Translations under genes and position numbers: made by a program
In this document: positions 1-24,301 of the stretch, one piece after another
How the letters are laid out: each line of letters opens with the position of its first letter
Numbering within the stretch: position 1 is the first letter of the stretch
DNA from: Pleodorina starrii
Taxonomy: Eukaryota; Chlorophyta; Chlorophyceae; Chlamydomonadales; Volvocaceae
Direction: 5' to 3'
DNA: 64,000 bases
NCBI GenBank assembly: GCA_030267565.1
Contig: BRXU01000020.1
Location: forward strand, 1,939,501 to 2,003,500
The notes under the pieces: generated by a model
Told to the model about the DNA's origin: nothing
Seen by the model: the letters and a program-made list of their open reading frames with translations, nothing else
The model's database searches: none

Positions 1-3000
1 GTGGGATGCCGCCAGCCTGAGCAATGGCGACCTGGTTGGCATCATTTCTAGAAGCTACAATCATCAAAGCCCTTGCTGCCTGCTTCTGTACGCCAGTGTC
101 CGAGCTGTCCAGTAGCTTCACCAGGGGTGGGATGCCGCCAGCCTGAGAAATGGCGGCCAAGTTGGCATCATTTGCATAAGCTAGACTCACCAAAGCCCGC
201 GCTGCCTGCATTTGTACGCCGGTGTCCGAGCTGTCCAGTAGCTTCACCAGGGGTGGGATGCCGCCAGCCTGAGCAATGGCGACCCGGTTGGCAACATTTG
301 CATAAGCTAGACTCGCCAAAGCCCATGCCGCCCACTCCTGCACGCCGGTGTCCGAGCTGTCCAATAGCTTCACCAGGGGTGGGATGCCGCCAGCCTGAGC
401 AATGGCGACCTGGTTGGCATCTTTACTACATAGATTCGCCAAAGCCCGTGCTGCCTGCTTTTGTACGCCGGTGTCCGAGCTGTCCAGTAGCTTCACCAGG
501 GGTGGGATGCCGTCAGCCTGAGAAATGGCGTCCCGATTGTTATCGTTTTCGCAAGCTCTCTTCGCCAAAGCCCCCGCCGCCCACTGCTGCACGCCGGTGT
601 CCGAGCTGTCCAGTAGCTTCACCAGGGTTGGGATGCCGCCAGCCTGAGCAATGGCGACCCGGTTGGCATCGTTGTTATAAGCAAGATTCGACAAAGCCCC
701 CACCGCCCACTGCTGCACGCCGGTGTCCGAGCTGTCCAGTAGCTTCACCAGGGGTGGGATGCCGCCAGCCTGAGAAATGGCGGCCCGGTTGGCATCATTT
801 GTAGCTAGCGTCATCAGGGATCTTGCTGCTTTTATCTGAATTTTCGCAGTCCTGCTGTCCAAAAGGCCCACTAGGCGCGTGATTTCGGCTCCATGGGCTC
901 CAAACCTATTGATGCTCCCACACATAACGAGGGCCTGCACACAAGCAAGTAGAGAAACGAAAGGAAAGTTTTACGCTGGACCGTAAGCCCTAGCCTGTGT
1001 TAAGGTAGCAGACTGATGCTGTAGCAGCCGGGCAGTGCGGCGCTAGGCTATAAGAGCCTAAGCTACACCTGCACAAACAACTCGAGTGGCCTTCAGCAAC
1101 TAAGACTGCTACGGATGCTTCATCGGCGGATACAGCCCACTACCGCGGTAACCGCATTTTTGACTAAGAAGCGTGAAGCACCCAGGGGGGCCCCGCCCTG
1201 TAGGATTGCCCATGTCCGTGCCTGTCAGTTACGTAACTGACCAAGTGCAATATCTAGGCCAGCGGAAACGCGATATGAGCAACATATTACATTCTTTATT
1301 GCATGGTATTATATGCAACAATCATCGAATGAGTACAAACCAGTTTTGCAGTCTCCATGGACCGAGGCCGAGGTCTAATCAACGCCTCTCGGCCTATAAT
1401 CAATTCCAAAAGGTACATCGCTTCTCATTTTGGAATTCTGACATGACGGCGTCTCTTAGTTTGGAGAACCGCGCAAGCAATGGGGGCCCTAGGGTGGTCG
1501 GGGCGGTCGGGGGGGTGTAGGGGCCCCCGGGGGCACTAGGGGCGGTAGGGGCACTAGGGGCGGTCGGGGGATGTAGGGCCCTCACGCACCACGACCGCCC
1601 CACTTGTGCCCACTACCACCTCCCGCGTGCCCCTAGTCCTTCCGATTATATAAATATACTAACGTTTTAGTAGGGGCAATAGGGCCTACAACCCCTAGTA
1701 GTCGTCCAACCCTCTCCGTAATGTATGGTTAACATTCATTCCGTAAAATGCTCTCCGTAAAATCAGCTATGGGTCGCCACGCATGTCCTCCGTAATATAT
1801 GGTTAACTTTCCGTAATCTGCGGTTTACATTCCGTAAAATGCTCTCCGTAATGCACTTTTGGGGTTGCCCACTTCTCCGTAATATAAGGTTTATATTCCG
1901 TAAACTATTCTCTGACAGATCTCCGTAAAGCCTCCGTAACCTGATGGAGAGATTACGGAGACACTTTACGGAGACACTTTACGGAGAATTCCTCCGTAAA
2001 TAAAATGCGGTTACTTTACGGAGAATAGCCACCCCATTTTATGGAGTCTATACCCCCCCCCTTTTCCCAGAGTAGTGATATATCTTTAGAGGGCCAGAAG
2101 ATCTGCAGAGCAATAATCCCATGTCTAGGGTATATATGTATGGGTGCCCCCCGTGACACACGGAAGTCCGTTATCGTCAGAAGAAACATGATACTTCTGC
2201 CGTACAGTGATCCATGTGTCTATTTGGGATGCTGTGGCTTTATTTGGTCGCCCTGCTGGCGGCGGTGGCTGGAAAGCACCGTTGACAGCGCATGTTCCAG
2301 GGTGGCGCTCCGGCTGCCACGCACCCCGCTTGGCCGTGTTCAGTTGGTCATTGTTGGTGCCGCGGTGGTTGCTGACTTCTGGTGGCCTATGGTGTCGTGC
2401 CGGCTGCCGTGGCTAGGAGATAGAGTGGTGCCGTTGTTTCGTTAAATAGTGTCATAAATAAAGGTGCATACATTGTCGCTTCCTTGTGTACAAAAGTCCC
2501 ACGCACGCACGCGCCTGAGCTACGGTGCACCCCTTCATTACTACTTTGATATGTATGCATGTATGTAGAGCTGGTCCAGGCGCCTGGTCCGAGCTAGGAC
2601 CGAGCGAGTTCATTTGCACACGGTGCATGTTCCCGACTCTTTCTGGTCATAATAATACTCCGGTGGGTCTTGTGTCCGGTTCAGTGGGAAATTGGATAGC
2701 TGCTGTACGTGTGTACGTATATATACCTCAAACAGCGGGAACAAAGGAAATGAATGGAAAGAGTCAGGTAGGGCGGGCTGTTCACGCAGCTCGGGCCCAT
2801 AGGTACCGTAGTCCCTCGGTGTAGTATCTCATGGATGAATACGGGGACTTCCCTGACATCCACCCATGGGCCTTCTTTGGTGAGATACAACACTCGGCAC
2901 TCACCAGCCATCGCTTAAAAGCCGTTGGCGCAGCCTCCAGCTTGTCCTGCTGTCGATCCTGCGTCAGGTAGGTTCATGGTACATGCACACATGTAACCCG

Positions 3001-6000
3001 ATCTATTTTCAGCAGACAGTGTATGTGTGTATGTGTGTGGATGTGCGTGTGTGGATGTGTGTGTATGTGTGTCGTTACAGTATCTGACCGGGCCCTGACG
3101 CTGGCCAGGGGCTGCTAACCCAGCCCCGACGGAAAGACCGCCTAAGCACTCTCCCCCTTGCGGTGGGAGAAGGGCGTGAGGGGCCGCTACCCCCTCCTGC
3201 TCGACGCGGAGCTGGCTGCGTCGTACACCCCATATACGGGTGTACGGCGCAGCGGCTCCCCAAAGGCTTGAGCTCACAGCCTGCCATATACGGCAGCTGG
3301 GCCCTTCGTCCGCACAAACAGCAGTCGCGCCGGCGCGCTACGCGGCGCCCGCGCTGTCCTGCCCGCCCTGAAGTCCTTGCAGCGCCGGGGCGCCCGGCCG
3401 GCCTGCTACCGGCTGGCGGTGCTCCTCTAGGCGCGAAAACAAAGCGCTGAGAACCTGCCCCGAGCTTGGTCCGGCTCGTGGGCGGTCAGCACCAAAGGAG
3501 AACCCAAGACAGCGCGCGTCCTACCCCTGCTACTACTCCTACTACGACGGCCCCGGAGAGGCCGGGGGGTGGCCCCTAGAGGCCGAGCTCCAGAGCTCCG
3601 CTTGGCCTCGAGGCGGCAGGAGGTCGGGCGCGGGCCTTGCGGCAGCGGGCTAGGTGACGGGGCTATAGTTCGCACTAGGCGGCACCTCGCCAACTCGCCT
3701 CACTCTCGCTGTACCCGCTCCCTATGTGTGTGGATGTACCTCGCTGTACCCGCCTCCTATGTGTGTGGATGTGTGTGGATGTGTGTATGTGTAGCTTGCG
3801 GTGTGTGCCCGCCCAGCCACGTGCCAGATCTATCGGCATCCATCCCGCTGCTTAATAAAATTCGCACATATTTATCGTACAAATCACGGCAGCATTTGAC
3901 TGCACGGTTATTGGCGCATCTAATGATGGCATCAATAATAACTAGCGGAAGTGCAACTTCGTTGTGAGGTGTTTCGTGCGTTCAGGTAGACAGGCACGAT
4001 CGAATGCATGACAGGTAAGCTGAGGTTGGTGCAGTCCTCTTATGCCTAAGAGAAGCACTCAGGGCCAGAAGCAAAACTCAACCAACAGCCTCTCCGCTTC
4101 ATTATTAATGACTGCAAAGGTAAACCCACGCACTGCATGTATCTTTCCTTCCCCACCTACCCCTCTGTTCGCACGCTAACACCGTCTCCGTCCCATCGCT
4201 GCGATGCGGATCTTCTTTTTATCCCCACCTACCCATGTCATCCTCGCTGTGTATTGAAATCGATGATAATCAGTCATCAGAAACTCAGCTGGTGGCATTA
4301 GATAGTGGAGTAGTGGATGGAACTTCACCATGCAGCAGGCACGCACGCACGCACGCATACGTGCATGCATGTACATACTGCTTACCATCTCCGGGGCAAT
4401 CCTCAACTGCGCGTACATGCCCTGGAGGTAGGTGCCCTTGTCGCCGCCTGCAGTCTCTGCGAGGTCGTCCAATGCCATCCGCAGCCCCGCCTCAGAGCGC
4501 TGGTCGAGTCGCTTCCAGCAGAAGTAGGAGTAGATGGCCCACACACGGTCCGCCTCGGACCAGGCCTGGTAGATGCCAGAACGCGCCTCCTGCCCCAGGT
4601 ACACGTGCAGCCACTCCCGAGTGGGAGCCTCCTCCAGGGGGCTGGGTGATAGCCACACACCGACGGCTGCCACGCAGAGGTCCGCCACCTTGTCCTCCAG
4701 ATGGTCACAGGCTGCCGCTTGCACGCCACCGAGCCGGACAGCAATGGCCAGCGGTCCAAGCACTGCATCCAACAGCCCAGCGGCATTCTGGCCGAGCATC
4801 TTCTTGTAGATGATGGATGATGCGTTATCTTCGGTGTTTTTCACCATGGCGTCCACGACCATCCCCAGCCAGCTCTCGAGCGACAGCCAGTTGCACAGGC
4901 CCTCACTGCGGCCATGGCGTGCCATGCGTTCTGCCAGTGTCCACACACGGCCGAAGTACTCCCGCCCTGCAGTCCTGTTCTTCTCGAGGATGGCCCCGAT
5001 GACGGACTCCGCCACAGCACACTGGAGGGACTCGGTCTCGTCGGCTGCTGCTGCGCTTGCGCTTGCGCGTGTGTGAAGGACTCTCTGTGCCTTGGCAAGG
5101 ATGACCCGCACGGGGCCCTCCTCTGGCAGGTCCTCGAATGTGGGCAGGATGTGCATCAAATGTGCACGCGCATAGAAGACTTTGCTCCTGTGCACTTCCA
5201 CCATCGAGTCTTCAGAGTACACCTGAGGCACACAGGACCTGAAAGCAGTGGCAAGCACATTTGGCACATCGACATGAATGTCAATGGGCGCCGTGTGCCT
5301 ACCCAGGATGGAAGATGCATGCAACAGCATCTCCTCTGCTTGCAGCAGCTGCAAGCTAGCAGCAGGGGGGATACAGCCAGTGGACTGCTGCAGTCTGGTT
5401 TGGGCTGGCTTACATTTAATAGGTAGGTCCAGACCAGACCAAACCAGACCCATCTCCGGTGCACAATGCACAGCGAAGCACCTTGTTTCAGTGTGCCATT
5501 CCGAACCTCCTTGATGCAGTGGCCAACATGCATACCCGCATGTTTCAGTGTGCCATGCGGGTATATACGCATGTTGGCCACTGCAACAAGGTTTCAGTGT
5601 ACCATTCCGGCGGCACCATACATGCAGCACCACCACCCCAGCGTCAGACACAAAACCGACCCATACATACATACATGCACCATTATTGCCTCAATAGATA
5701 GCTAGGCACATATGTACGCACGCACGCACAGCAGGAAACAACAAAACAGGACAATGTACCATTACATGATGTACAATTCCTTCCCCGCACGTTCTTCATC
5801 GCACACGCATCTGTCATCACTCACCAGTCGATCCAGACATACTCGACCCCGCTGCTGTCGACTGCATGTTGCAGCGTTGCCTTGAGCTCCCGGAACTGAA
5901 GATCCGACATGGGTAAGAAGCCCGGCTCATAGACCCCTGGCTTCCGCTTCGCCCAGCGCCAGCTGATTGTCACCACCCGCTTCCACAGCTCGTCATCTGT

Positions 6001-8215
6001 GTCCGCATACGGGACCTGCAGCCAGCATTGCCATTACAAGCAGCAAGAATGCGGCGAGCGATGGGCAAACGAACATGCATTCGTTTCATTCCATTTGTGG
6101 ATATGTTGGTTGTCGCTCGCTCGCTCGGCGGCTCAGCAGAGAACTTGATTGCCTTGTTTGTGAGGCACACGCATGCACAAATTGAGTGAACGAACTTCAC
6201 GGGAAAGGTTGTTGTGGTTGAGAACCAGGAGGATGTCACGTGGAGGTATGTTTGTATCATTGCCTGTATGTGAGGGCATCAAGCATTCGTGTTTCTCTAG
6301 CCGGATGACGACTGCACACCCGACCGGAGGCCGAGCGAGGCGTGGTTGAAGGTAGCAGATAAAGGAGGTGGGGTGACGGGTTTCCCCGGCACCAGTCCTC
6401 CCCCGCCACCGTGACTTCACACCGTATGCATGCAACCGTACGTCAGTCACACGCTATCTACGTACTCACTTGCAGCGCCTCTGTCTCCAGGTCGACAACC
6501 TCATACGCCTTGAGCTGGCTCCATTTGAGGACGGCTGCAATCTTCATCAGCCGCACGTTTGCCCCGCGGAGTGACGGCGGCATGCCGAGGTGCAGGTCCT
6601 GGAGGCACGCCGGCAGGCTGCTCAGCGCCTGGTTGGCCTGACCGCCTGTCAGGTGGGGTCGCCCAAGAGCCGCCTTGTTTGGCGCCTGCTGCACTTGGCT
6701 GGCGATCTCCTCGTGGACGGCCTGTGGTTAATCATGCACGGATCGATGTACATTATTTACACGCACACGCACAAACCGGACACATACGGTAGTGAATGCA
6801 CGCTTTTATTTGCGGGGCAACGAATGAGATCATGACACATAGCAGAAGCAGCCCGCGTGTATGATGCCGTCAAGTGCACCCAACCTGTGGGTGCCCAGCC
6901 AGCCAGTAGTGTGCCGCGCGTGCGTGCAGCTGCGTGCCCCAGGCAGCAGCCAGCAGTCCAACTTTCGGATGATCCGACAGGCTGGCCCTGACCGTTTCCT
7001 TGCCCATGCCTTTCGTTATTTCTTTCTCGTAGCTTGCTGCAAGCTCTCAGTGGGGGCACTACGTAATTCGTTGTGGGTGCCGAATTTCATCGGTCCGGCT
7101 CGCTCCGTTATTCCTCATGAATGCATTGCCTACACCGTGCATGCAACGTTAGCATGCATAGGACGGACGGAATCCTCCCTGAACCACTGCTTTATTACGA
7201 GGATAACTGCTAAGCACCCTCCAACACCTACCACAGCCACCATCCTCTGTGCGGTCTGAATGCTCATCACAGCTCATCAACTCGACACGGCTAGCTGATG
7301 CGCCCCCGTGCTGCACCATACAACGCCCTTGCTGCATGCGAGGTTGATTTTGGGGGTAACGAGAAGGCCCTGAGCTTTGGGGGGCCGATCAAGGCCGGGG
7401 TCAACCTGGTTATTAATCAGAAGGGAATGCATGAATTCCTTGTGGCACTTCAGATCCACCGCCCCTGCTCCCGTAAATACCGTCCGACTTCACCCTTCGT
7501 TACCATTGCCTACCGGTATCTCTATAATGCCCTGGCCGACGTGCATTGCACCGGACGCTTCCTATCCATTCTCCTGCACCATCCGCATGCCTCGAGTTTG
7601 AGCGGTTGGGGAGCACTAACTGCGACCGACGGGGATACGAACAGCAAGGGGGCGTCGCCCTATTTCCGGCTTTGCAAAGCGCAAACCCTACTTGTTCATA
7701 TACATTTACAACTTGATTATTGATATAACGTCTTTGTAGCGGCTGATTACGGCTTTTGACGACATTTGTCCGACGAGGACCGAGCGGTTCAGCCCAGCGC
7801 CCGTTGCCCTCGCGTATACACCCTCCGAGGCCAGCCTGACTTAATACGTTTTCCATCATATTTGCCTGACTTCTAATTAGTCGTTAAGGGGCTTCACGCA
7901 CACCCTGCTGCATCGTCCACGGAAGCATCAAGTATTTCCAACAGTGCTGCTGACTTCCTTTATTTCTCTTCAGTTCCCTTCAATATGAGATTGCTAATTC
8001 CCTGGAGCCGCTGAACTTGTCTCGCCGCCGCTCGATGGCCCAGCGTTCCCCTCTTTCACTCGTTGGGCAACGACAGAAAGCTACATACAAGAATACAAAC
8101 GTATACGTTTGTGTTTGTTTTCACCCACCTTAAGCAACGGGTTGTCCTTGGTGGTCGGCTTGTCATCATCAGCGCACGCTTGCTGACGGACCACTCGCGA
8201 TGAAGAAGCGCCCAT
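1..8215 (-). CDS. HET-like domain + ARM-repeat protein, copy 1 (3' end beyond window)
   Basis: Supported exons in transcription order: 8215-8129, 7038-6885, 6721-6470, 6015-5825, 5238-4386, 2958-2905 and 934-1 (open at the edge). All have GT/AG borders, and from 6721 onward the phases join without a stop. Exon 1 encodes MGASSSRVV, an N-myristoylation consensus. The exons at 6015 and 5238 join across IDW|SCVPQ and give three HET-type motifs: VVTISWRWA, EYVWIDWSCVPQ followed by an MVEVHRSKVFYARAHLM stretch, and REYFGRVWTLAER. An 18-codon linker exon ends in FKRWL. The last exon has about seven ARM repeats of the type VAIAQAGGIPPLVKLLDSSD. HET domains belong to the TIR-related fold and act in fungal self/non-self recognition; the role here is inferred. 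The part between 8128 and 7039 is unresolved: a conserved reading frame of about 28 codons starts at 8080 and then meets a stop in both paralogs. Same architecture as the neighbour at 14298-24301. Confidence 0.8.
955..1175 (-). mobile_element. Truncated SINE-like repeat (3' portion)
   Basis: This stretch, in the intron before the ARM exon of copy 1, matches in opposite orientation the tail half of the complete element at 13900-14326: the shared runs include TTACGCTGGACCGTAAGCCC and the CAGCCCACTACCG block. The tRNA-like head is missing and a segment of about 80 bp in the middle differs. Confidence 0.6.
1710..2035. repeat. Dense cluster of CTCCGTAA / TTACGGAG motifs
   Basis: An AT-rich island inside an intron of HET-ARM copy 1. 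CTCCGTAA and the variant TTCCGTAA recur roughly every 15-30 bp on the plus strand up to about 1935. After that the inverse motif TTACGGAG recurs several times, so the two halves form an imperfect inverted arrangement. Copy 2 has nothing similar in the corresponding intron, so it is probably a lineage-specific insertion, perhaps the subterminal repeats of a DNA transposon. Confidence 0.6.
3000..3078. repeat. TG-rich microsatellite
   Basis: Runs of TGTGTATG, TGTGTGGATG and similar repeats in the intron between the 18-codon exon and the HET exon of copy 1. A related block, TATGTGTGTGGATGTG, resumes at 3723-3793 after a GC-rich segment that copy 2 lacks. Confidence 0.7.
3079..3715. mobile_element. 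GC-rich segment absent from the paralogous intron (probable insertion)
   Basis: The intron between the 18-codon exon and the larger HET exon is about 1.4 kb in copy 1 but about 0.65 kb in copy 2. The difference is mostly this block of about 640 bp, which is markedly GC-richer than its surroundings and interrupts a TG-repeat tract. No transposon protein, clear terminal repeat or target duplication was found, so the mobile-element label is an inference from the paralog comparison. Confidence 0.4.
5509..5591. repeat. Long intronic hairpin, conserved in both paralogs
   Basis: The left arm reads CCTTGATGCAGTGGCCAACA and continues through TACCCGCATG. The right arm is its reverse complement, CATGCGGGTAT then TGTTGGCCACTGCAACAAGG. 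The stem is about 35 nt with a small bulge, and the loop is about 11 nt (TTTCAGTGTGC). It lies in the intron that splits the two HET exons. The same hairpin occurs at 20355-20437 in the same intron of copy 2. Confidence 0.8.
6313..6417. repeat. About 95-bp dispersed repeat, copy A
   Basis: It contains CCCGACCGGAGGCCGAG, then GGAGGTGGGGTGACGGGTTT and CCAGTCCTCCCCCGCCACCG. Related copies lie at 17833-17926 and 21129-21231. Copies A and B sit in the same intron of the two HET-ARM paralogs, so they predate the duplication. The third copy is in a different intron of copy 2. Confidence 0.7.
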
Positions 8216-8340
8216 CCTTAACTGACGTCAATTTGTAAAGCTATTACATTTGTTTTTTTAGACCTGGAACTGTTGCATTAATTGGAACTTGCTGCCGCCG
8301 TTCGATCTCTTGCGCAAAGGTTACCGCGCAACTTAGGTCC
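8216..8340 (-). promoter_or_regulatory. Upstream region of HET-ARM copy 1, conserved with copy 2
   Basis: The sequence just upstream of the start ATG is similar, with small indels, to 24302-24430 upstream of copy 2. Shared blocks include GTTGCATTAATTGGA, CTGCCGCCGTTCGATC and CCGCGCAACTTA (plus strand). Similarity then fades. This shows that the duplication carried the 5' flank, probably with promoter and 5'UTR. No TATA box or other named element could be identified. Confidence 0.45.
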
Positions 8341-9240
8341 TATTTCCAGTGCGGATTCAGCCTTGGTCTTCCCGTAATGTGGAAATCCTGGTGGGATTAG
8401 GCTGGATTAGCCAGGAATTCGGGGTTGCCTTTATGCCACCGTGTTCTCTATGTAGAGAACTAGCTGGGGTTCGTAAGAGTTCAGGAAAGAGCAGAAACAG
8501 TGTATGATTTTCCAGTATTTAGCTTGAATCCTCTGTCAAAAAAGTTATGACCTGGCCTGGCCCCACCCAGGTGATATCTTTCCGTACATGGATTTTCATT
8601 CATGGCGGCATATTTGACTTTAATTTCTAGGTAATCCCATTATTACGACCTTAAATTAGCAATAGTTGTTTTGATTTGCGCGGAAGGTGCTACTTCAATG
8701 TCCGGTCTTATGAGGCCCCCAAATAGTCCGCTTCCTAAGCATTTGCAATAATGGTAAACTATGTTCAAGAACTAAAATGACGTTTACGTTTGCTTCAATC
8801 TCTGCCTTGCCCTTTGTACGGCCTTAATCCCCGCACTAATCCCCGGCCTTACAGGGGGATTCCACTGAGTCGCTTGTTTGTTTGATCCGACAAAAATAAC
8901 AGGCGCTTAAATAATAATAAAGCTGACAAAAGTCCGCTTCCACACAGAGCCCTGAAACAACTTTTGTTAGCCTTCTGTAGCGCCAAACCAAACCCATTTT
9001 CTCATCTCATTTGTGATTTAAATGCAATAATGAAACGGATGGTTATTGTACAAGTTTGGCCGCGCTGCTGGCCCTTTTTATGAACATGTTGGCCGCGCCG
9101 CGGCCGCGCCGCGCCGCGCGGCCGCGGCGGCCGCGGCGGCGCCGCGGACGCGCATGGATGTCCAGTCGTCGGGCTGCACCCCGCAAGGGCAGCTGCATAG
9201 TTGCAGTAGACAACTGATGAAGAGGTTATATATAAACACC
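8341..9240. other. Intergenic, no gene seen
   Basis: AT-richer sequence with frequent stops in all frames and no recognisable protein similarity. A short, strongly palindromic GCCGCG-rich block follows at about 9085-9155. Confidence 0.5.
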
Positions 9241-9510
9241 GCCTAAACTGAGTGGTAGAAAACGTGAATACCAGTACGCCAATACGTAGATAGACTTCGC
9301 AACCGACGCATCTCGAGAAGCGCCTTTGCAAGTAAACGCTGATCACCTGGAGTCATGACTGCAGACATGTTCCGTTGTTCCCGATAGGTAACGCAGTCGA
9401 CTGCCGCATTTCTGTCGAATGTCGTTGTAGGCAGGACACTCCAGAAACACGTGGCGCTCGTCCTCAAACGAACCGGAGCTGCACATAGCCTGCAATTTTC
9501 GCACATTCGC
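9240..9510 (-). mobile_element. LINE (non-LTR retrotransposon) 3'-end remnant
   Basis: On the minus strand, one frame reads CSSGSFEDERHVFLECPAYN followed by DIR. This is the Cys-x-x-Ser/Cys...Glu-Asp-Glu-x-His...Glu-Cys-Pro zinc-knuckle type found at the C-terminus of many non-LTR reverse transcriptases (zf-RVT style). The frame ends soon afterwards and the upstream polymerase part is absent, replaced by low-complexity GGAAGGG sequence. A related degenerate copy lies at 25480-25600 in the equivalent position upstream of copy 2. Confidence 0.6.
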
Positions 9511-12169: not shown

Positions 12170-12575
12170 TTAAAAATGAACCTTTCGTCCTCGGTCCCAT
12201 CTCATCCCCTTGTTATTATGCATCGTCGACTCTTCGGCGGGCACAGCCCATTACCACGGTGACCGCATGTTTGACTAAGATGGGTTACTTTTCCCACCCA
12301 CTCCGTGTCTTGGCTCCGTCTCACTCAGATCACATCTGGGTACCCGCACGCATTTTCCCGGTTATGCTAGACACATTATTGTTGACCATTCAACCGTACG
12401 TGATGAGTTCTACCAGTGCAGGGGACATGGACATGGCTGAAGAGCCAAGCGACCATCTGCTGTTTGTCCCACACCAGGGCCCCCATCGGTTACCCAACCC
12501 TCTCCGAAGGCCGGGATCGAAGCTGTGACCTTATAATCACAAATTATGTGCCCTAACTCTCAGGCTCACCCTAGG
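12170..12575 (-). mobile_element. SINE-like element, tRNA-derived head
   Basis: Read on the minus strand, the element begins near 12575 with CCTAGGGTGAGCCTGAGAG, an A-box-like stretch. It continues with CTTCGATCCCGGCC, a B-box-like stretch (consensus GGTTCGANNCC). The body then matches the 13900-14326 element through CACACCAGGGCC(C), CATCTGGGTACCCGCA and CGGCGGGCACAGCCCA. The 3' boundary is approximate and no target duplication was confirmed. Confidence 0.65.
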
Positions 12576-13689
12576 TATAGCATATGAGGCTATCTAGGCC
12601 TGTTGCCGAGCTAAGCGCCACCCAGCAGGAGAAAGATAGAACCGCAAAGACAACCCTGCTGAAAACACACCCCCCGAACCAAGTCCGTCCCATGGAAATA
12701 AATGGATATTGCGGAACCTTGTGACGCGGAACGCATTGCAGCCAATGCCGGACGCTCACAACACCGAACTCCACCTGCTGCGCAACACGCAGCCAGGCCT
12801 CCAGGGGGCCCGTCCAGCAGACGCAGGCACCACCGCATACAGCGTGCCGCTCCAACACGGAAAGGGCAGCAAACCGCAACACCGCTTCACAAGCACGCAG
12901 CGGCACCTGCAGGTAGAAGTCGGAGGAAACGGACCGGACGTCAGACGGGAACGACGGCCGCCGGCTGTAGTATCTGATGGGTGAATACGGGGCCTTCCAT
13001 TCCCTGACTTCCACCCATGTGCCTTGCTGCCTTCTTTGGTGACACAACACCCGCAACCCACACAATCGCATACCACGCAACACCTATTCTGCATGCAGGG
13101 ACTCCCCATACATCCGTCCGGGAAGGAACCAACGGGCGGGCTGTCGGAACGCGGGACGCAGCAGACCACACAGACATCCCCCCTCGTCGAGACCCTGCCC
13201 AAAAACGAAGTCAGGATCACAGCAACAGCACATGACAATGTACGTGTAGTCCAAGAAACTAAGGACGGAGGCCCCTGCTGCCGCACCTGCTGAAGCTCCT
13301 CGGCGCATCTCGGGCACGGCACGGCACACCACGCAAAAGGGATGGGGTCCATCAGAATCTTGCTTCGTCAGCCAGCCATCAGGCATCAGGCATCCATCGT
13401 CTACATGCAGCCGGGACCCGAGCATAGGCTGCGAAAGTAGCGGAGCAGGCGGCGGGCATGCACACGTGCACACATCAGGCAGTATGTTGCATGCAGCTTA
13501 TGATATCCTTGCAGTAACACCGACACTACTTCAAGGACAATGTTCTTCACAAGGTACATACGTGCGGTGCAGCATGCATGTGGCCACTTATACGTTCTCA
13601 ACAGTACATATAGCAAGAGCAGGCATGCATGGCACAACCAATGACACCCTTACATAAACCCATTCGTTCTTGCCTACCCGGATGGATGG
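12576..13689. other. Relic DNA with a piece of HET-ARM intron
   Basis: No intact gene. About 12,960-13,050 resembles 2,826-2,890, an intron segment of HET-ARM copy 1 (shared ATACGGGG..CTTCC, CCACCCATG and GCCTTCTTTGGTGA). This suggests debris of a further gene copy or of the 3' end of copy 2. The overlapping open frames on both strands in this stretch have no consistent coding signal. Confidence 0.4.
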
Positions 13690-13891
13690 GTTCAGAGTTG
13701 GCATCATTTGCATAAGCTAGACTCGATAAAGCCCCTGCTGCCTGCGTCTGCACGCCGGTGTCCAAATTTTCCAGAAGCTTCACCAGGGGTGGGATGCCGC
13801 CAGCCTGAGCAATGGCGACCTGGTTGGCATCTTTATTAGCTGGATTCGCCATCCAAAGCCCATGCCGCCTGCTTTTGTACGCAGGTGTCCG
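13690..13891 (-). pseudogene. Severed ARM-repeat tail of copy 2
   Basis: This minus-strand sequence continues the ARM repeat that is interrupted at 14334: DSSDTCVQKQAAWAL on one side of the SINE follows the repeat broken at KLQDS on the other. A 4-bp insertion next to AAWAL shifts the frame. Past it the ARM units NQVAIAQAGGIPPLVKLLE and DTGVQTQAAGALSSLAYAN are still readable. Similarity ends near 13690. It is probably no longer translated as part of copy 2, because the SINE supplies a stop codon upstream. Confidence 0.75.
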
Positions 13892-13899
13892 AGCTGTCC

Positions 13900-14326
13900 G
13901 TCCCCTAGGAAGCGCCTGAGAGATAGTGCACAGATTGATGACTGAAGGGTAACATGTTCGATCCCGGCTTTCGCAGAGGGCTGGGTGACCGATCGATGGG
14001 GCGGGGCCCTGGTGTGGGAAGAACAGCAGGCGATCCCATAGCTCTTTAGCCATGTCCCTGTGCATTCCATGCACTGGTAGATAGAACTCATCAAGGTTGA
14101 ATGTTCAACAATGATGTGTCTGGCATAACTGGGAAGAATGCATGCATGCGGGTACCCAGATGTGATTCGAGTGAGACGGAGCCCAGACACGGAGGGGTGT
14201 GAAAAGCTACCCATCGTAGTCAAAAATGCTGCCGCCACGGTAGTGGGCTGAACCCGCCGAAGAGGCATCAGTCTGCTCCCTTAGCACACGCTAGGGCTTA
14301 CGGTCCAGCGTAAACTTTCCTTATTA
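13900..14326 (+). mobile_element. Complete SINE-like element with 8-bp target-site duplication
   Basis: This 427-bp element is flanked by AGCTGTCC at 13892-13899 and 14327-14334. Removing it and one repeat rejoins a normal ARM-unit sequence. Near its left end it has an A-box-like stretch (GCCTGAGAGATAGTGCACA) and a B-box-like stretch (ATGTTCGATCCCGG), as in tRNA-derived SINEs. It encodes no protein. It shares its body with the copies at 12170-12575 and 955-1175, and its head with 45780-45900. It supplies the last codons and the stop of HET-ARM copy 2. Confidence 0.85.
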
Positions 14327-17300
14327 AGCTGTCCTGTAGCTTCTCCAGGAGTGGAATGCCGCCAGCCTGAGCAATGGCGACCTTGTTGGCATCATTTGCA
14401 TTAGCTAGACCCACCAAAGCCCCTGCTGCCTGCTCCTGTACGCCGGTGTCCGAGCTGTTCAGTAGCTTCACCAGGGGTGGGATGCCGCCAGCCTGAGCAA
14501 TGGCGACCTTGTTGGCATCTTTATTAGCTAGATTCGCCAAAGCCCATGCCGCCTGCTTTTGTACGCCGGTGTCCGAGCTGTTCAGTAGCTTCACCAGGGG
14601 TGGGATGCCGCCAGCCTGAGCAATGGCGACCTGGTTGGCATCTTTACTAGATAGATTCGCCAAAGCCTGTGCTGCTTGCTTTTGTATGCCGGTGTCCGAG
14701 CTGTCCAGAAGCTTCACCAGGGGTGGGATGCCGCCAGCCTGAGCAATGGCGACCTGGTTGGCACCTTTACTAGATAGATTCGCCAAAGCCCGTGCTGCCT
14801 GCTCCTGCACGCCGGTGTCCGAGCTGTCCAGAAGCTTTACCAGGGGTGGGATGCCGCCAGCCTGAGCAATGGCGACCTGGTTGGCATCTTTACTAGTTAG
14901 ATTCGCCAAAGCCTGTGCTGCCTGCTCCTGCACGCCGAAGTCCGAGCTGTCCAGTAGCTTCACCAGGGGTGGGATGCCGCCAGCCTGAGCAATGGCGACC
15001 CGGTTGGCATCATTTGCATTAGCTAGATAAGCCAAAGCCCATGCCGCCTGCTTTTGTACGCCGGTGTCGGAGCTGTACAATAGCCTCGCCAGGGGTGGGA
15101 TGCCGCCAGTTTGAGCAATGGCGACCCGGTTGGCATCTTCATAAGCTAGATAAGCCAAAACCTGTGCCGCCTGCTTTTGTACGCCGGTGTCCGAGCTGTC
15201 CAGTAGCTTCACCAGGGGTGGGATGCCGCCAGCCTGAGCAATGGCGACCTGGTTGGCACCTTTGTAAGCTAGATTCGCCAAAGCCCGTGCTGCCTGCTCC
15301 TGCACGCCGGTGTCCGAGCTGTCCAGTAGCATCAGCAGGGGTGGGATGCCGCCAGCCTCAGCAATGGCGACCCGGTTGGCATCTTTGTCAGCTAGATAAG
15401 CCAAAGCCCATGCCGCCCGCTTCTGTAAGCCGGTGTCCGAGCTGTTCAGTAGCTTCACCAGGGGTGGGATGCCGCTAGCCTGAGCAATGGCGACCTGGTT
15501 GGCATCTTTATAAGCTAGATAAGCCAAAGCCTGTGCCGCCTGCTTTTGTACGCCGGTGTCCGAGCTGTCCAGTAGCTTCACCAGGGGTGGGATGCCGCCA
15601 GCCTGAGCAATGGCGACCCGGTTGGCATCTTTGTCAGCTAGATAAGCCAAAGCCCATGCCGCCCGCTTCTGTAAGCCGGTGTCCGAGCTGTTCAGTAGCT
15701 TCACCAGGGGTGGGATGCCGCCAGCCTGAGCAATGGCGACCTGGTTGGCATCATTTCCAGCTAGAACACCCAAAGCCCCTGCTGCCTGCTCCTGTACGCC
15801 AGTGTCCGAGCTGTTCAGTAGCTTCACCAGGGGTGGGATGCCGCCAGCCTGAGCAATGGCGACCTGGTTGGCATCATTTCCAGCTAGAACACCCAAAGCC
15901 CCTGCTGCCTGCTCCTGTACGCCAGTGTCCGAGCTGTTCAGTAGCTTCACCAGGGGTGGGATGCCGCCAGCCTGAGCAATGGCGACCTGGTTGGCATCGT
16001 CGTTGGAAGCTAGCGTCATCAAGGACTTGGCTGCTTTTTCCTGACCTTTCACAGACATGCTGCTGTTCAAAAGGCCCACTAAGCGAGTGATTTCGGCTTC
16101 TCGGGCTCCGACCTTGTTGATGCTTCCACACATAACGAGGGCCTGCACACAAATAGTGACGAGGGGAACAAAAAGGCTAGCTCATCTTGCAAGATACAAG
16201 GTAGGCATGCATTTGGAGTGCTTGTGGTGGGCTTCACATCTTTTGGCGCAGCTGATCCTCCGTCCGGGCGGTGAAGATGTTTTCATTCCGCTCGGGGCGG
16301 TGCGTGATTGTGAGGCCGGGGCCGTTGGGACACCCTATAGCAGTCAAACCGCCCTTAAGGGCAAAATATGGCCTTTCGGTATGCCCTTAAGGTCAAACCA
16401 CACTAGCGTGTTCAACGTTAAACGGTTGTGCTGCTGACACACTTTGTTGGTGCTGGAAACCATGCATACGGCATGGGACACATGAACTTAGCCCCTGGCG
16501 CCCGTAATAATCTAGGCAGGTCGGTGTGATTCGTAGATGTTGTCGTTGATTTGGGAGTTGGAGCTGGGATGACAAGATTGATGCGAGAATGGAGTTGCAT
16601 CTATCAATGCATTACTGAATACGATGCGTCGTATGCATAATCGTTTTCCAGGCGTTGGGCCCGGCTGGGGGTAGGGGGGCTGCTGCCCCCCCTCCCCCAG
16701 ATCCCCTCCCCCCCACTGGTGGGGGGCGGGGGGCTGCCGCTATGTAATTATTTGGATGTCGGAGAGATGAAGCGCCGCCATGTAAATATTTATAATTGAC
16801 GACAACGGTACAATATGGAATGAACAGAAGTTCCGGATGCGTTGGAGCGATCGAGTGCAGCCTCGGACCTGCTCGGACCACGGACTCAAGCAGTCGAACA
16901 TCTTTCATACTGATACATGCACTATTGCTTTTAAAATTCTAATATAGTATTACGAGTATTAAGGGCTATTAATTAGCATTGATAGCGTATCCAGCCACGA
17001 AGGTTGCTCGTCACTCAGCCGGGCAGACAGCCAGCCATTCATACTGATACATGCACTATTGAATTTAAGTTTAAAATATAGTACTACGAGTATTAAGGGC
17101 TGTTAATTGGCCTTTATAGTGTATCCAGCCATCAAGGTTGGTCGTCACTCCGCCGGGCAGCCAGCCAGCCAGGCAGCCACGAACAGGGCCAACACCCCCG
17201 CGCAACAGATATTCAAATTCTATATAAACTTCAGTGCTACTACCCTCGCGAGGTGGCTTGGATGTGTCAAATCGTTATATGCTCTGCCGTATACAAGCAT

Positions 17301-20300
17301 CACCCTACGTACATTTTCCCACTTTGAGTGTTGTGCGGGCTTGGCGTGCGTGGTGCTGGTGGGCCTTGGAGGCTTGGCTTTCGGCACCCCTCCGTGGGTG
17401 ACCCTGGGGTAGGATGAAGAGTCCGTCTAGCATGTACGGCTAGCAACCGTTATGAACATCGGTTCCCCTTGTAATCCTTGCATTCTAACAAGTCTTTCAC
17501 ACTTCGTGCGTCGTGCGGGCTTGGTGCTGGTGGGCCTTGGTGGCTTTGCTTTCGGCACCCCTTGTGGGTGCCCCTGGGGTAGGATGAACAGTCTGTCTAG
17601 CCTGTACATACGGCTAGCAACCGGTGTGAAAACCGGTTCCCCTTGTAATCGTCGATTCCTAACAAGTCAACGCAAGTCGAGTGCTTCAATAAGTAGGGTG
17701 GCATTAGGTATCTGCTGGTCACCTACCATGTGACACAAAGCTACGGAAAATAATATCAGATAGACTCATAAACAAGGTCGTCCAGCTGTTCGCCGAATAA
17801 TAATAAATAATGATATAAAATAAATAATAATACGCCCGACCGGAGGCCGAGGCGTGGATTAAGTAAGGGAGCAGAGGAGGTGGGGTGTCGGGTTTCCCCG
17901 GTCCCAGTCCTCCCCCACCACCGCAGAATAATAATTAACCTTGTATGTGGGCAGTCTTTTCCCATGCCGGAACTTGGTCAAGCGACCGATTCCAGCCAGC
18001 CACGCAGAAGGAAACATGTAAGGGTCTAAATAACTGGCGCCAATGGTCTTTAACAGCTGTGTAGCTAAGTAAGCGCATTCTTGTCCCTAATATATAACTT
18101 CCCTAATAATGTCATCAACGCAGCCCAATGCCCTTACACAACGCACTTCAGCACGGAGTGCGTGCACGGACATACATGCGCATAGAGCTAGCGGCGGCTT
18201 TGGAGTGGACAAGTGCAGAACAGAACGAACGGCACTCACCAGCCACCGCTTAAAAGTCGTTGGCGCAGCCTCCAGCTTGTCCTGCTGTCGGTCCTGCGTC
18301 AGGTGAGGTTCATGGTACATGCACACATGTAACCCAATCTATCTTCAGCAGACAGTGGATGTGTGTTTGTGGGTATTCGCATACATACATAGCTTGCACG
18401 CAGATAGAGCTGCGGTGTGTATGTACCCGCCCACGTGTCAGCTTTATCGGCACCCATCTATCGTATCTATCTCGCCACTTTACAATTCACACCTGTATAT
18501 CGTAACAATCACGCACGGCACCATTGACTGCACGGTTATTGGTGCATTTTATGATGGATGGCATGTATAACTAGCTAAAGCACAATCTCGGTGTGAGGGG
18601 GTCGTGCACACGTGCGTACAGGTAGGTAGATAGGCAGGCATGAAACTGTACATACGTGACAGGCCGAGGTTATACACTTCTCTTTTGCCCGAGAGAAGTA
18701 CTCAGGGCCAGCACCACTCAGTTAACAGCTTCTCCACTTCAATATTAATGATTTCAATATTGAAAGGCAAACGCACGCACTGCATGTATGTGGCGGGCTC
18801 TCTTCTTCCCCATCCACCCAGGCCATTCTAGAAGTATACTGAAGTCGGTGATAATCAGTCATCAGACGCATCATCGGTCAGCTAGTGCCATGAGGGGATT
18901 GAAACGTTAATATGCAGTAAGTAGGCACGCATGCATGTACTGCTTACCATCTCCGGGGCAATCCCCAGCTGCGTGTACATGCCCTGGAGGTAGGTGCCCT
19001 TGTCGCCGCCTGCAGTCTCTGCGAGGTCGTTCAATGCCATCCGCAGCCCCGCCTCAGAGCGCTGGTCGAGTCGCTTCCAGCAGAAGTAGGAGTAGATGGC
19101 CCACACACGGTCCGCCTCGGACCAGGCCTGGTAGATGCCAGAACGCGCCTCCTGCCCCAGGTACATGCGCAGCCACTCCCGAGTGGGAGCCTCCTCCAAG
19201 TTGCTGGGCGATAGCCACACACCGACAGCTGCCACGCAGAGATCCGCCACCTTGTCCTCCAGATGCTCACAGGCTTCCGCTTGCACGCCACCGAGCCGGA
19301 CAGCGGTGGCCAGCGGTCCAAGCACTGCATCCAACAGCCCAGCCGCATTCTGGCCGAGCATCTTCTTGTAGATGATGGATGATACGTTATCTTCGGTGTT
19401 CTTCACGATGGCGTCCACGACCATCCCCAGCCAGCTCTCGAGCGACAGCCAGTTGTGCAGGCCCTCACTGCGGCCATGGCGCGCCATGCGTTCTGCCAGT
19501 GTCCACACACGGCCGAAGTACTCCCGCCCTGCAGTCCTGTTCTTCTCGAGGATGGCCCCGATGACGAACTCCGCCACCGCACACTGATGCAAATCGGTGT
19601 TATTGGCTGCTGCTGCGCTTGCGCGTGTGTGAAGGACTCTCTGTGCCTTGGCAAGGATGACCCGCACGGGGCCCTCCTCTGGCAGGTCCTCGAATGTGGG
19701 CAGGATGTGCATCAAACGTGCACGTGCATAGAAGACTTTGCTCCTGTGCACTTCCACCATCGAGTCCACAGAGTCCTGAGGCACACAGGACCTGAAAGCA
19801 AGAAGCGAGGGGCACATCGACATGAATGCCATTCAATGGCCGCCGTGTGCCTACTCAGCAGGATGGAAGATGCATGCAACAGCATCTCCTCTGCTTGCAG
19901 CAGCTGCAAGCAGCAGGGGGGATACAGCCAGTGGCTGACTGTATGAAGTGAGGCAAGGTTGCCTCAAATAAAGCTGGTGGCCTGGCGGGGTTTTTTTATT
20001 ATTTGAATGCCTTCGTTCACGCAATTATTAATCTCGCTGAACTTGATTCCCTCCCCTGTGTACACACGCACATGACGACCATATGTACTAGCTAGTAGCG
20101 TCTGTCTCCTGGGTGTATGTGCTTTCCTCTACGTAGCTTGCATGCACGCCCTTGTCCTTTCCGCCACGCACTTGGCCCGTTGGCTCTACCCTTTGGCGGT
20201 TATGGAGCCGGTGCGTGCCGACTGAAACTACAACCAACATCTGCTGACGGACTGCAGTGCTGGTCTGGGCTCGGTTACATTTGATGTTCTATCTAGATAG

Positions 20301-23300
20301 GTCTAGACCAGACCAAACCAGCCCCATCTCCGGTGCACAATACACAGCGAAGCACCTTGATGCAGTGGCCAACATGCATACCCGCATTACACATTGTGCC
20401 ATGCGGGTATATATGCATGTTGGCCACTGCAACAAGGTTTCAGTGTACCATTCCGGCGGCACCATACATGCAGCACCACCACCCCAGCGTCAGACACAAA
20501 ACCGACCCATACATACATGCACCATTATTGCCTCAATCAACAAACTCACGCATGTCGGGGTTCCCTCGATAGGCACACATATATATGTACGCACGCACAG
20601 GAAACAACAAAACAGGACAATGTACCATTATAACGAAGAAACATGATGTACAATTCCATCCCCGCGCGTTCTTAATCGCACACCGCACGCATCTACCATC
20701 GTATCACTCACCAGTCGATCCAGACATACTCGACCCCGCTGCTGTCGACTGCATGTTGCAGCAGTGCCTTGAGCTCCCGGAACTGAAGCTCCGACATGGG
20801 TAAGAAGTTGGACTCGTAGACCTTCGGCTTCGGCTTCGCCCAGCGCCAGCTGATTGTCACCACCCGCTTCCACAGCTCGTCGTCTGTGCCCGCATACGGG
20901 ACCTGCGTGCAGCCAGTATTGCCATTACAAGCAGCAAGAATGCGGCGAGCGATGGGCAAACGAACATGCATTCATACATTTCATTCGATTTGTGGATATG
21001 TTGGTTGTCGCTCGCTCGGCGGCTCACGCAGCAGAGAACTTGCTTGCCTTGTTTGTGAGGCACACGCACGCACAGATTGAATGAAGTTCATTCAAGCATT
21101 CGTGTTTCTCTAGCCAGATGAAGACTGGACACCCGACCGGAGGCCGAGGCGTGGGTTAAGGGAGCAGATAGAGGAGGTGGGTTGATGACGGGTTTCCCCG
21201 GCGGTCCCAGTCCTCCCCCGCCACCGCGACTGCACACCGTATGCATGCAACCGTACGTCGCTCGGTCACATACTTGCAGCGCCTCGGCCTCTGCATCGAC
21301 ATCCTCATACGCCTTGAGCTGGCTCCATTTGAGGACGGCTGCGATCTTCATCAGCCGCACGTTTGCCCCGCGGTGTGACGGCGGCATGCCGAGGTGCAGG
21401 TTCCGGAGGCACGCCGGCAGGCTGTCCAGCTCCTGGCCGGCCTGATTGCCTGTCAGGTGGGGTCGCCCAAGAGCCGCCTTGGTTGGCGCCTGCTGCACTT
21501 GGCTGGCGATCTCCTCATAGACGGCCTGTGGTTAATCATGCATGCACGGATCGATGTACATTGTTTACACGCACAAGCACAGGTAGGGCAGGCAGCAGGT
21601 GACTTGTGTAATCGATCTGGGACCACAAACTAACCGAACACATACAGTAGTGAATGCACGCCTTTATGAGATCATGGTACACAGCAGAAGCAGCCCACGT
21701 GTATGATGCCGTCGAGTGCACCCAACCTGTGGGTGTGTGTCCAGCCAGAAGTGTGCCGCCGCGCGTGCGTGCAGCTGCGTGCCCCAGCCAGCAGCCAGCA
21801 GTCCAACTTTCGGATGATCCGACAGGCTGGCCCTGACCGTTTCCTTGCCCATGCCTTTCGTTATTGCTGCAAACTCTCATTGGGGGCACTACGTAATTGG
21901 CTGTGAGTGACGAATTCCTGTTCATGTAAGCCTGGCTCCTGAGCTTCCGCGGGATAAGCCTTTGCTGCTTACAATTATTCACCGGTCCGTCTCGTTCCGT
22001 CATTCGTTTCTCATCAATGCACGCATTGAGTGCCTACACCGTGCATGCAAGGTTAGCATAGGACGGACGGATTCCTCCCTACACCACTTCTTTAGAAGTA
22101 TACTAGTAAGCACCCTCCAACACCACAGCCACCATCCTCTGTGCGGTCCGTCTGCATGCTCATCAACTCGACACGGCTAGCTGATGCGCCCCCCTACCAA
22201 CGGACCGGCCTGTTAAGTTAAGTCTTAAGTCACTAATAAGTCACTTTAAGGCAAACTGGATGCTGTGCAGAGTTGTCATTTGACTTAAGAGTGACTTCGA
22301 CTTTACATTAAGTCAAATGCTGCTTAATAGTCCGTGGAATGGCAGACTTAAAATTAAGTCAAAATCCCGCGATGCTTAGGCTCCTGAGTAGCGCACCGCA
22401 ATCAACATCCCGCAATGCTTAGGCATCAGAGTAGCCAGCTAGCTGATGCGCCCGGCCCCGTGCTGCACCATACAACGGCCTTGCTTGCTGCATGCGAGGT
22501 TTATTTCGGGAGTACGGCCCTGAGGTTCGGGGGGCCGATCAAGGCCGGGCTCAACCCGATCAATCAGGAAAAAAGGAATTCCTTGTGGCACTCCAGCAGA
22601 TCCACCGCCCCTGCCGCTCCCGAAAATACCGTTCGCCCCCCTTCGATATGACTTCCTATCATCATATATAGAGATAGATAGCGAGGTTCACCGATGGATT
22701 TTGTAAGTCCATCATTACCAGAGCCCAAGGTGTAACCACGCAATCAGCAGGCAGGGTGTTCGTACTCGTTGCCCTAACGAAGCACGCGTCCCCTGACTGG
22801 CGACGGAGCCGGGGCCGAGCCCCTTTTCGGCATCTATCGTTGAAGCTTACACAATGTTCGTCATTTGGACCTATCGATCGTTTGGACGGGCGGGTTGCTT
22901 CGTTGGAGTTTGTAGATACCGCGCGGGTCATGAACAATCAATAAGCACCATCAACGGCCGCGAGCACGTGCGTGTGTCCGTGAGCATGCAGGGCATCGGT
23001 GAATGCGGTGCAGCAGATAGAAGCGTGGCGAGGGGCTCGCTGTGTACGGTAGGTATTGCTTGCATGTATGACTGTGACCTACTGTGAGGCCGGGCTATCT
23101 AGCTGCGTGTCTCCGTCCAGCAGCTGAAGCGAGTACCGTACATACATATATTTTTACCACCTTGTTCGTTATTAGCGTATTCGCCCGTGGTCGTGGGTCC
23201 GACTAGCGACTACAGCGAGTGTGGTTCGAAAGCGGACACCCCATTGCCACGCACGCTGGCAGCATGCAGCAGGGGGCTTCCAGCCACCAGGGCCGGCCGC

Positions 23301-24301
23301 GGCCACACGGCGACGCGACAGCCCGTAGACCGACCAATCACGCAACTCCTGCAACTTTCATAATGGCCACAGTTGGTAATCGGAATATAAGGCAGCTACA
23401 TTGCACATGCGGCGCCGGCGGCCATGACCGATTGAAACCGACCCCGCTGAACCGGCGAACCTAGGCTTAGATTGAAGATGTCATGACTTCTTCCGTCTAT
23501 TTTGCAACTTGATTATCATATCATCCAACCCAGTTTGATGTCGTCATGATTCGACTTCGACGGCGGTGACAACATACAATGCACTCAGCGCAGCAGACTT
23601 CCTGTGCCCTCGCCAACGTGCATTGCACCGGACGCTTCCCATCAATTCTCCTGCACCATCCGCATGCCTCGAGTTTGAGCGGTTGGGGAGCACTAACTGC
23701 GACGGGGATACGAACAGCAAGGGGGCGTCGCCCTGCTTCCGGCTTTGCAAAGCGCAAACCCGACTTGTTTTTATACAATTTTAACTTGATCTTTAATATT
23801 ACATCTTTATAGCGACTGGTTACGGCTTTTGACGACATTTGTCCGACGAGGACCGAGCGGTTCAGCCCTCCGCCCTGGTTTGCCCTCGCGTATACACCGT
23901 TGCGAGACCAACCTGCCTTCATATATTTTCCGTCATATTCGCCTGACTTCTAAGTAGTCGTTAAGGGGCTTCACGCACACCTTGCTGCATCGTCCACAGA
24001 AGCATCAAGCAATTTCAACAGTTCTGCCGATTTGATTTTATTCTCTTCAGATCCTTTCGATGGGAAATTGCTAATTCACTGGAGCCGCTGAATTTGTCTC
24101 GCCGCCGCTCGAAGGCCCAGCGTTCCCCGCTTTCACTCGTTGGACAACGACAGAAAGCTGTTTACAAGTATAAGGAAGTTTACTGTTATGTTTGTTTACA
24201 CCCACCTTAAGCAACGAGTTGTCCTTGGTGGTCGGCTTGTCATCATCAGCGTATGTTTGCTGACCGTGTTGCGGGACCACTCGCGATGAAGAAGCGCCCA
24301 T
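14298..24301 (-). CDS. HET-like domain + ARM-repeat protein, copy 2 (3' truncated by a SINE)
   Basis: Exons in transcription order: 24301-24206 (MGASSSRVV myristoylation start), an unresolved stretch, 21866-21727, 21525-21274, 20902-20712, 19791-18948, 18293-18240 and 16142-14298. Every resolved border is shared with copy 1 in position and phase. The HET-type motifs are VVTISWRWA, EYVWIDW joined to SCVPQ, and REYFGRVWTLAER. The long last exon encodes an N-terminal cap repeat and 13 ARM units of 42-43 residues that are almost identical. A 14th unit breaks off at KLQDS, and the last nine codons (LIRKVYAGP) come from the SINE. The DNA of the first two full units is identical over 126 bp. ARM repeats form a superhelix that binds protein partners; HET-like domains signal downstream. 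A membrane-linked receptor or adaptor is plausible but inferred. The gene may still be expressed, but its array is shorter than in the uninterrupted state. Confidence 0.8.
16143..16907. other. Intronic sequence of copy 2, nothing recognised
   Basis: This is part of the intron before the ARM exon. It includes a short G- and C-run-rich palindromic stretch at about 16,650-16,735. No reading frame or repeat family was recognised. Confidence 0.4.
16908..17170. repeat. Tandem duplication, unit about 130 bp
   Basis: Two adjacent copies each begin CATACTGATACATGCACTAT, contain TATTACGAGTATTAAGGGCT or a near-identical form, and end in AGGTTG.TCGTCACTC and GCCGGGCAG. They differ by a few substitutions and lie within an intron of HET-ARM copy 2. 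Confidence 0.75.
17311..17670. repeat. Tandem duplication, unit about 180 bp
   Basis: Two units share GTGCGGGCTTGG, GGTGCTGGTGGGCCTTGG, CTTTCGGCACCCC, CCTGGGGTAGGATGAA, GGCTAGCAACCG and GGTTCCCCTTGTAATC at a constant offset of 180 bp. The unit has no open frame conserved in both copies. It is intronic and absent from copy 1. Confidence 0.8.
17833..17926. repeat. About 95-bp dispersed repeat, copy C
   Basis: Same family as 6313-6417 and 21129-21231 (CCCGACCGGAGGCCGAGGCG, GTCGGGTTTCCCCGG, CCCAGTCCTCCCCC). It lies in the intron upstream of the ARM exon of copy 2. Confidence 0.7.
20355..20437. repeat. Long intronic hairpin, counterpart of 5509-5591
   Basis: The arms are CCTTGATGCAGTGGCCAACA...ACCCGCA and GCGGGTAT...TGTTGGCCACTGCAACAAGG. 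The stem is retained although the loop has diverged (TTACACATTGTGCCA). It is in the same intron as in copy 1. Confidence 0.8.
21129..21231. repeat. About 95-bp dispersed repeat, copy B
   Basis: Counterpart of 6313-6417 in the same intron of the second paralog, with one small internal insertion. Confidence 0.7.
22192..22437. mobile_element. MITE-like insertion with repeated TTAAGTC / GACTTAA
   Basis: This 246-bp block is bounded on both sides by GCTAGCTGATGCGCCC (22176-22191 and 22438-22453). Copy 1 has that 16-mer only once, at about 7287, and no insert. Inside are several inverted TTAAGTC/GACTTAA motifs and a direct repeat around ATGCTTAGGC. It has no coding capacity. The unusually long flanking repeat may include bases belonging to the element. 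Confidence 0.6.

Follow-up and report, generated by a model that had tools for sequence, protein, structure and literature searches.

Tandem genes of the green alga Pleodorina starrii join a HET domain to an array of armadillo repeats

Results

The window analysed here, 64,000 nucleotides of contig BRXU01000020.1 (C20:1939501-2003500) of the volvocalean green alga Pleodorina starrii, carries two adjoining paralogs, genes A and B, in which a HET domain is joined to a long array of armadillo (ARM) repeats. It belongs to the genome of the bisexual strain NIES-4479 (136,057,477 bases in 95 contigs), which we searched throughout and whose annotation was built with RNA-seq from asexual and sexually induced cultures (PMC10256686). 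Both genes lie on the minus strand and consist of six matching exons with GT..AG introns, agreeing phases and no internal stop. Their parts follow in the same order: an MGASSS start, the HET domain, a 54-nt linker exon and the ARM array. Over exons 1-5 (476 codons) A and B are 94.2% identical at the DNA level, with a dN/dS of 0.62. A first-pass annotation of the window, made from its letters alone, had described tandem paralogs with an N-myristoylation motif, a HET domain split over two exons in compatible phase, and an ARM array in the same protein. Each of these elements was recovered, and the description was refined to six exons per gene rather than two and to a family of ten genes.

Gene B spans 24301-14298 (-) and encodes 1093 amino acids, its stop codon ending the last exon. 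Exon 1 (24206..24301) encodes MGASSSRVV, an N-myristoylation-like start, and exon 2 (21274..21525, from the in-phase splice model) the region ahead of the HET domain. The first HET half, VTISWRW ... YVWID, lies on exon 3 (20712..20902) and the second, WSCVPQ ... FGRVWTLAE, on exon 4 (18948..19791) together with a downstream region; both are placed by splice model and Pfam, and the phase-2 junction between them falls within the tryptophan of WIDW-SCVPQ. The linker DRQQDKLEAAPTTFKRWL forms exon 5 (18240..18293), and exon 6 (14298..16142), placed by Pfam and a repeat profile, holds the ARM array and the stop, with 15 repeat units found by the profile. Gene A runs from 8215 to past base 1 (-), and its ARM frame reaches a stop outside the window, giving 1237 amino acids. 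Its splice model comprises exon 1 with the same MGASSSRVV start (8129..8215), exon 2 (6470..6721), the two HET halves on exons 3 (5825..6015) and 4 (4386..5238, with a downstream region), both matched by Pfam, the linker exon 5 (2905..2958) and exon 6 (1..934), again placed by Pfam and repeat profile, whose array continues past the window to 17 units in all. The last intron measures about 2 kb in both genes. Past the stop of gene B, an open frame at 13598..14104 (-) contains one orphan ARM repeat. Gene B lacks the C-terminal end found in A and in the female-strain protein P0001, and its array may be truncated.

The annotated protein P0033 (PLESTB_001291300, P. starrii, 1011 amino acids) represents B as one gene, with 100% identity over the searched HET region and the same MGASSS start and YAGP end. 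The DNA model of exon 6 (14298-16142) exceeds it by 82 residues, equal to two repeats, a difference that may reflect either a gene model confused by the repeats or alternative splicing. The linker-exon junctions recur in two proteins of this strain, P0033 and P0034 (copy C), and in P0001, with stretches similar to the linker of B in P0001 and P0034. The order of parts is also that of P0033 and P0001, and of P0034 without its N-terminus.

When the spliced exons were compared with the Pfam HET family (PF06985, cut-off 22.5 bits), B scored 32.6 bits (E 1.2e-7, profile positions 2-146 of 146) and A 31.0 bits (E 3.9e-7, positions 3-146 of 146). A six-frame search of the genome with the same family listed three exons elsewhere and neither A nor B, which escape it because their domain is split over two exons. 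Of 40 aligned relatives, 38 have a listed Pfam HET match at E up to 10. The R.W...E motif is close to invariant, R and W being present in 45/45 aligned rows and E in 44/45. According to a review (PMC9153377), HET shares a functionally important glutamate with TIR, and the equation of the HET motif E with that residue rests on this literature; our structure search with the HET domain recovered no TIR-related fold and matched SARM1 weakly. In the HET parts of spliced A and B, Pfam lists neither NACHT nor NB-ARC (E up to 1); for the ARM exons, the 25 best of 36 and 37 families include neither of them (the further rows have E above 4e-4). SAM is likewise absent from the Pfam listing of the HET parts and from those best 25. 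Such classical domains do occur in the genome, with three matches to TIR_2, two to NB-ARC and two to NACHT; PF01582 TIR gave no match in the genome search. One 316-residue open frame at C66:60805-61215 carries a TIR_2 domain (E 8.5e-20).

Searching the genome with the HET part of B yielded 29 matches, which represent ten loci. Contig C20 holds four of these loci (A, B, C at 1917 kb and D at 2041 kb), C30 and C38 hold two each, and C39 and C19 one each. Their C-terminal modules differ, with six ARM (C20, C30), one SPRY (C39) and three ANK (C38, C19). Two database searches, each confined to about 8,000 best-sharing candidates, gave 67 distinct relatives among the matches listed, several of them isoforms of the same gene. 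By Pfam tag, 24 of these carry ANK, 12 SPRY, five ARM, four LRR and 22 none of these. The first-pass annotation had suggested a search for the HET-ARM architecture in other volvocalean genomes. The same HET family is indeed present in other algae, with HET-ANK and HET-SPRY proteins, many starting with MG, in Chlamydomonas, Gonium, Volvox and relatives; these differ from A and B in their C-terminal module, and all five ARM-tagged relatives are from P. starrii. In a tree of 41 of 45 sequences, the HET-ARM and HET-SPRY proteins of P. starrii and the untagged P0014 form a group with support 1.0 beside HET-ANK, and the ARM genes as a single clade reach only 0.24. Together, the tree and the modules suggest exchange of the sensor alongside a retained HET part.

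A myristoylation-like start is found in 28 of 46 family models of the Chlamydomonas-Volvox group, or 28 of 47 counting C. incerta P0027, which lacks the motif; isoforms are counted singly, and at least three motif-less models (P0039, P0040, P0045) have no start methionine. Among more distant relatives, 9 of 11 have a hydrophobic segment ahead of the HET motif, and in three of four LRR proteins it sits between LRR and HET, both by a hydropathy-window threshold only. The order LRR, hydrophobic segment, HET in P0021 and P0064 (Tetraselmis) and P0028 (metagenome) is the layout of a Toll-like receptor (LRR-TM-TIR, with TM the transmembrane segment) in which HET replaces TIR. P0033, the product of B, differs from it in having no hydrophobic segment and an ARM array instead of LRR.

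The arrays match Pfam ARM (PF00514) with E 3.9e-175 over 13 stretches in B and E 5.2e-72 over six stretches in the part of A within the window, and they match solved ARM structures. A profile built from the B repeats found 17 units in A, 15 in B and 17 in C, of which 16, 13 and 14 (43 repeats) entered the codon statistics, the remaining units being short or divergent. Between repeats, identity is 0.88 (A), 0.90 (B) and 0.73 (C) in the framework and 0.34, 0.40 and 0.43 at six positions of helix 3. Genes D (0.62 vs 0.12) and E (0.52 vs 0.10) follow the same pattern; gene F, with too few units, was left out of this comparison. Across the 43 repeats, mean entropy is 2.05 bits at the six positions and 0.44 at the other 32, a value reached by 0 of 200,000 random sets, a count that is not independent, as the choice of positions followed inspection of the repeats and drew on known binding positions. 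Three further checks depend less on this choice. The WxxxN motif of the karyopherin groove (PMC3885797) maps to columns 31 and 35, which rank fourth and second of 38 in entropy. Helix-3 variability clusters on one face of the helix (moment 0.53; among 20,000 permutations a moment as high arose in 45 for the 43 repeats, and in 380, 232 and 366 for A, B and C singly). The residues of a designed ARM pocket (PMC12202725), provisionally placed on columns 24, 27, 28, 31 and 34 by spacing, are enriched in variability as well (548 of 50,000 for the 43 repeats and 29 for A; weakly for B, 2316, and C, 5574).

At the six positions, pN/pS is 2.04 in A (bootstrap 1.21-5.99), 0.95 in B (0.58-1.54) and 0.94 in C (0.68-1.61), compared with 0.37, 0.53 and 0.67 elsewhere in the repeats. 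It is clearly above 1 in A alone, so diversifying selection is indicated only for A. On its face, a helix-3 contrast inside so uniform a framework is unusual. The variable face may correspond to the ligand-binding groove, a surface taken from the literature rather than from a model of these arrays.

For 41 of the 43 repeats, the nearest repeat at the DNA level lies in the same gene. Best repeat identity over 100 amino acids, by an ungapped measure, reaches 98% in A, 97% in C, 91% in B and 67% in D, and P0001 also exceeds 85%. Identity above 85% over 100 amino acids is the repeat threshold used for fungal NLRs, whose repeats are described as strongly conserved internally, polymorphic in length and variable on the concave surface (PMC4986451). 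In our set, 17 of 78 sequences measured reach this level, some via repeats outside the sensor. The Edaphochlamys HET-ANK protein P0012 has repeats up to 93% identical over the same length, and homogenisation is thus not confined to the ARM version. P0001 is nearest to A, with a HET part 93.8% identical and an A-like end, and on this similarity it is likely an allele of A; the first two helix-3 patterns of its array resemble those of A, the later ones differ, and fewer were found. Identically scoring ARM arrays at C9:901-903 kb and C11:317-319 kb may be a recent duplication or a duplicate in the assembly.

Contigs C12, C9, C11 and C42 hold further strong ARM matches, with identities of up to 65%. 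Among five stretches inspected, those at C12:372-381 kb and C42:403-407 kb have caspase-like exons ahead of the array, with SGHG and DACRS motifs. Against Peptidase_C14, whose cut-off is 21.4 bits, the C12:372 kb and C42 pieces score 36.6 and 29.6 bits (two frames joined in each case); of two further pieces, one reaches 19.1 bits and the other gave nothing, and no caspase-like exon was seen at the C12:404 kb array. A C14 search of the genome found three exons, two of them those at C12:372 kb and C42 and the third, at C12:468 kb, not linked to any array. In the female strain, P0068 joins a caspase-like region to ARM, matching 97% of the caspase query at 51% identity, with no caspase family among its Pfam tags and no SGHG exon in its model. 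The ARM arrays of these caspase-side genes show the same helix-3 tendency, weakest at C12:452 kb (682/20,000).

Elsewhere in the window, we noted by eye protein-kinase-like motifs in frames at 36649-39230 (-) and a frame with a BTB-like stretch and alanine-glycine-rich repeats at 42568-44022 (+). A long frame at 59763-61568 (-) is built of tandem PIPQHPTHTPASHSY-like units.

Discussion

HET homologs of green algae were already noted in 2014 (PMC4986451); the novelty therefore lies in the HET-ARM fusion and its evolution. Among the papers listed in our literature searches, which covered few subscription journals, none dealt with HET-ARM proteins. The closest parallel among known systems is the fungal HNWD family (HET-E, HET-D and HET-R of Podospora anserina), which like A and B combines HET with repeats of high internal conservation and variable sites (PMC4986451, PMC10197012). 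Concave-surface variability has also been described for fungal ANK and TPR repeats (same sources). By the repeat test of that family, A, C and B exceed 85% and D does not. The two systems differ in that no central NACHT or NB-ARC domain appears in the Pfam listing of A and B, whose repeats are ARM rather than WD40, which have an N-terminal myristoylation motif and which belong to a green-algal host. SARM1, an ARM-SAM-TIR NADase, resembles A and B in combining, within a single protein, an ARM array with a domain that is TIR or predicted to be TIR-related (PMC9153377).

We tentatively favour a reading of A and B as membrane-tethered receptors whose ARM groove binds a peptide or protein ligand and releases the HET domain for a defence or cell-death response, and consider it plausible, if still short of probable. 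The steps of this action are conditional and build on the gene anatomy and evolution described above. The myristoylated N-terminus would tether the protein to the membrane, and ligand binding in the ARM groove would free or cluster the HET domain, presumed to be a TIR-related effector that is silent until then. HET might then act as its fungal and TIR relatives do, by cell death, which is stated to follow activation of fungal HET domains (PMC10197012), or by an NAD+-derived signal. Duplication and loss of repeats would shift specificity, and the trigger would be a pathogen or a conspecific. The first-pass annotation had likewise suggested a receptor or adaptor family for immunity or self/non-self recognition; the receptor part of that suggestion gains partial support from the varied sensor modules on one HET family, the variability of the helix-3 face, the differing array of the likely allele and the caspase-like exons ahead of the same kind of ARM array.

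Three points limit confidence in this reading. Framework identity averages 0.913 between A and B, not below the 0.908 found within A, with A-C (0.863) and B-C (0.874) lower, a pattern better matched by recent duplication on a local scale than by strict homogenisation of each gene. The array length of P0001 comes from a gene model, and the gene model of B dropped two repeats. Finally, the helix-3 contrast was measured in the P. starrii arrays described here, and part or all of it may be common to ordinary ARM arrays.

Among other explanations, HET-repeat proteins of volvocalean algae could serve sexual or flagellar processes such as gamete recognition and post-fusion events, with the ARM array binding an endogenous partner. 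A Chlamydomonas reinhardtii relative (P0056) is named NSG7, another NSG gene is nitrogen-starved gametogenesis 13 (PMC3235179), a C. incerta relative bears the name 'Flagellar associated protein', and three sexual phenotypes are known in P. starrii (PMC10256686). We nevertheless regard this as unlikely: no paper on NSG7 was found in the literature searched, and a fixed endogenous partner alone would not explain the homogenised, changing repeats or the caspase-like exons before the same kind of array. Somewhat less likely again are ordinary Vac8-kind armadillo scaffolds with HET as an inert interaction module. Vac8 has ARM repeats, as A and B do, and is acylated at its N-terminus. P0033, P0034 and P0043 are called 'Vacuolar protein 8' in UniRef, the closest solved ARM structures include Vac8 chains (E about 1e-49), and both the HET dN/dS between A and B and a helix-3 pattern that ordinary ARM proteins may share leave room for such scaffolds. 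A HET domain is not known from Vac8, however, and the conserved HET motif and the strong internal homogenisation of repeats in A, B and C speak against an inert module.

A SARM1-like sensor, in which ARM reads a small metabolite and frees a TIR-related NADase, would share its combination of domains with A and B, but appears improbable: the domain order is reversed, no SAM domain is listed for the HET parts of A and B, and one conserved metabolite would sit poorly with a set of paralogs that vary in helix-3 face and in array length. We attach hardly any weight to the last alternative, that the HET and ARM parts are separate neighbouring genes mistakenly joined. The last intron of about 2 kb in both genes would allow it, yet the 54-nt exon and its splice sites are conserved in both paralogs, matching junctions occur in P0001, P0033 and P0034, models from two strains, and the NIES-4479 annotation used RNA-seq.

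Modular peptide recognition by ARM repeats has been built by design by protein engineers. If A and B are receptors of the kind we favour, they would offer a natural case of it. Their family would also link a TIR-related HET effector with repeat sensors that change rapidly, with no nucleotide-binding switch involved, and would extend fungal HET logic to the plant lineage, as a green-algal counterpart of the fungal self/non-self system. More speculatively, and with considerable doubt, green algae might run an NLR-like repertoire for immunity or allorecognition without nucleotide-binding domains, in which effectors of cell death (HET, caspase) are linked directly with interchangeable sensors (ARM, ANK, SPRY, LRR-transmembrane). 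The ARM arrays of Pleodorina could then be an evolving modular code for peptide recognition, where near-identical units that differ in their groove residues are duplicated and lost, making new specificities between strains. With three sequenced strains of different sex in P. starrii and HET-ANK relatives in laboratory Chlamydomonas, recognition of parasites or of other individuals by green algae becomes directly testable.

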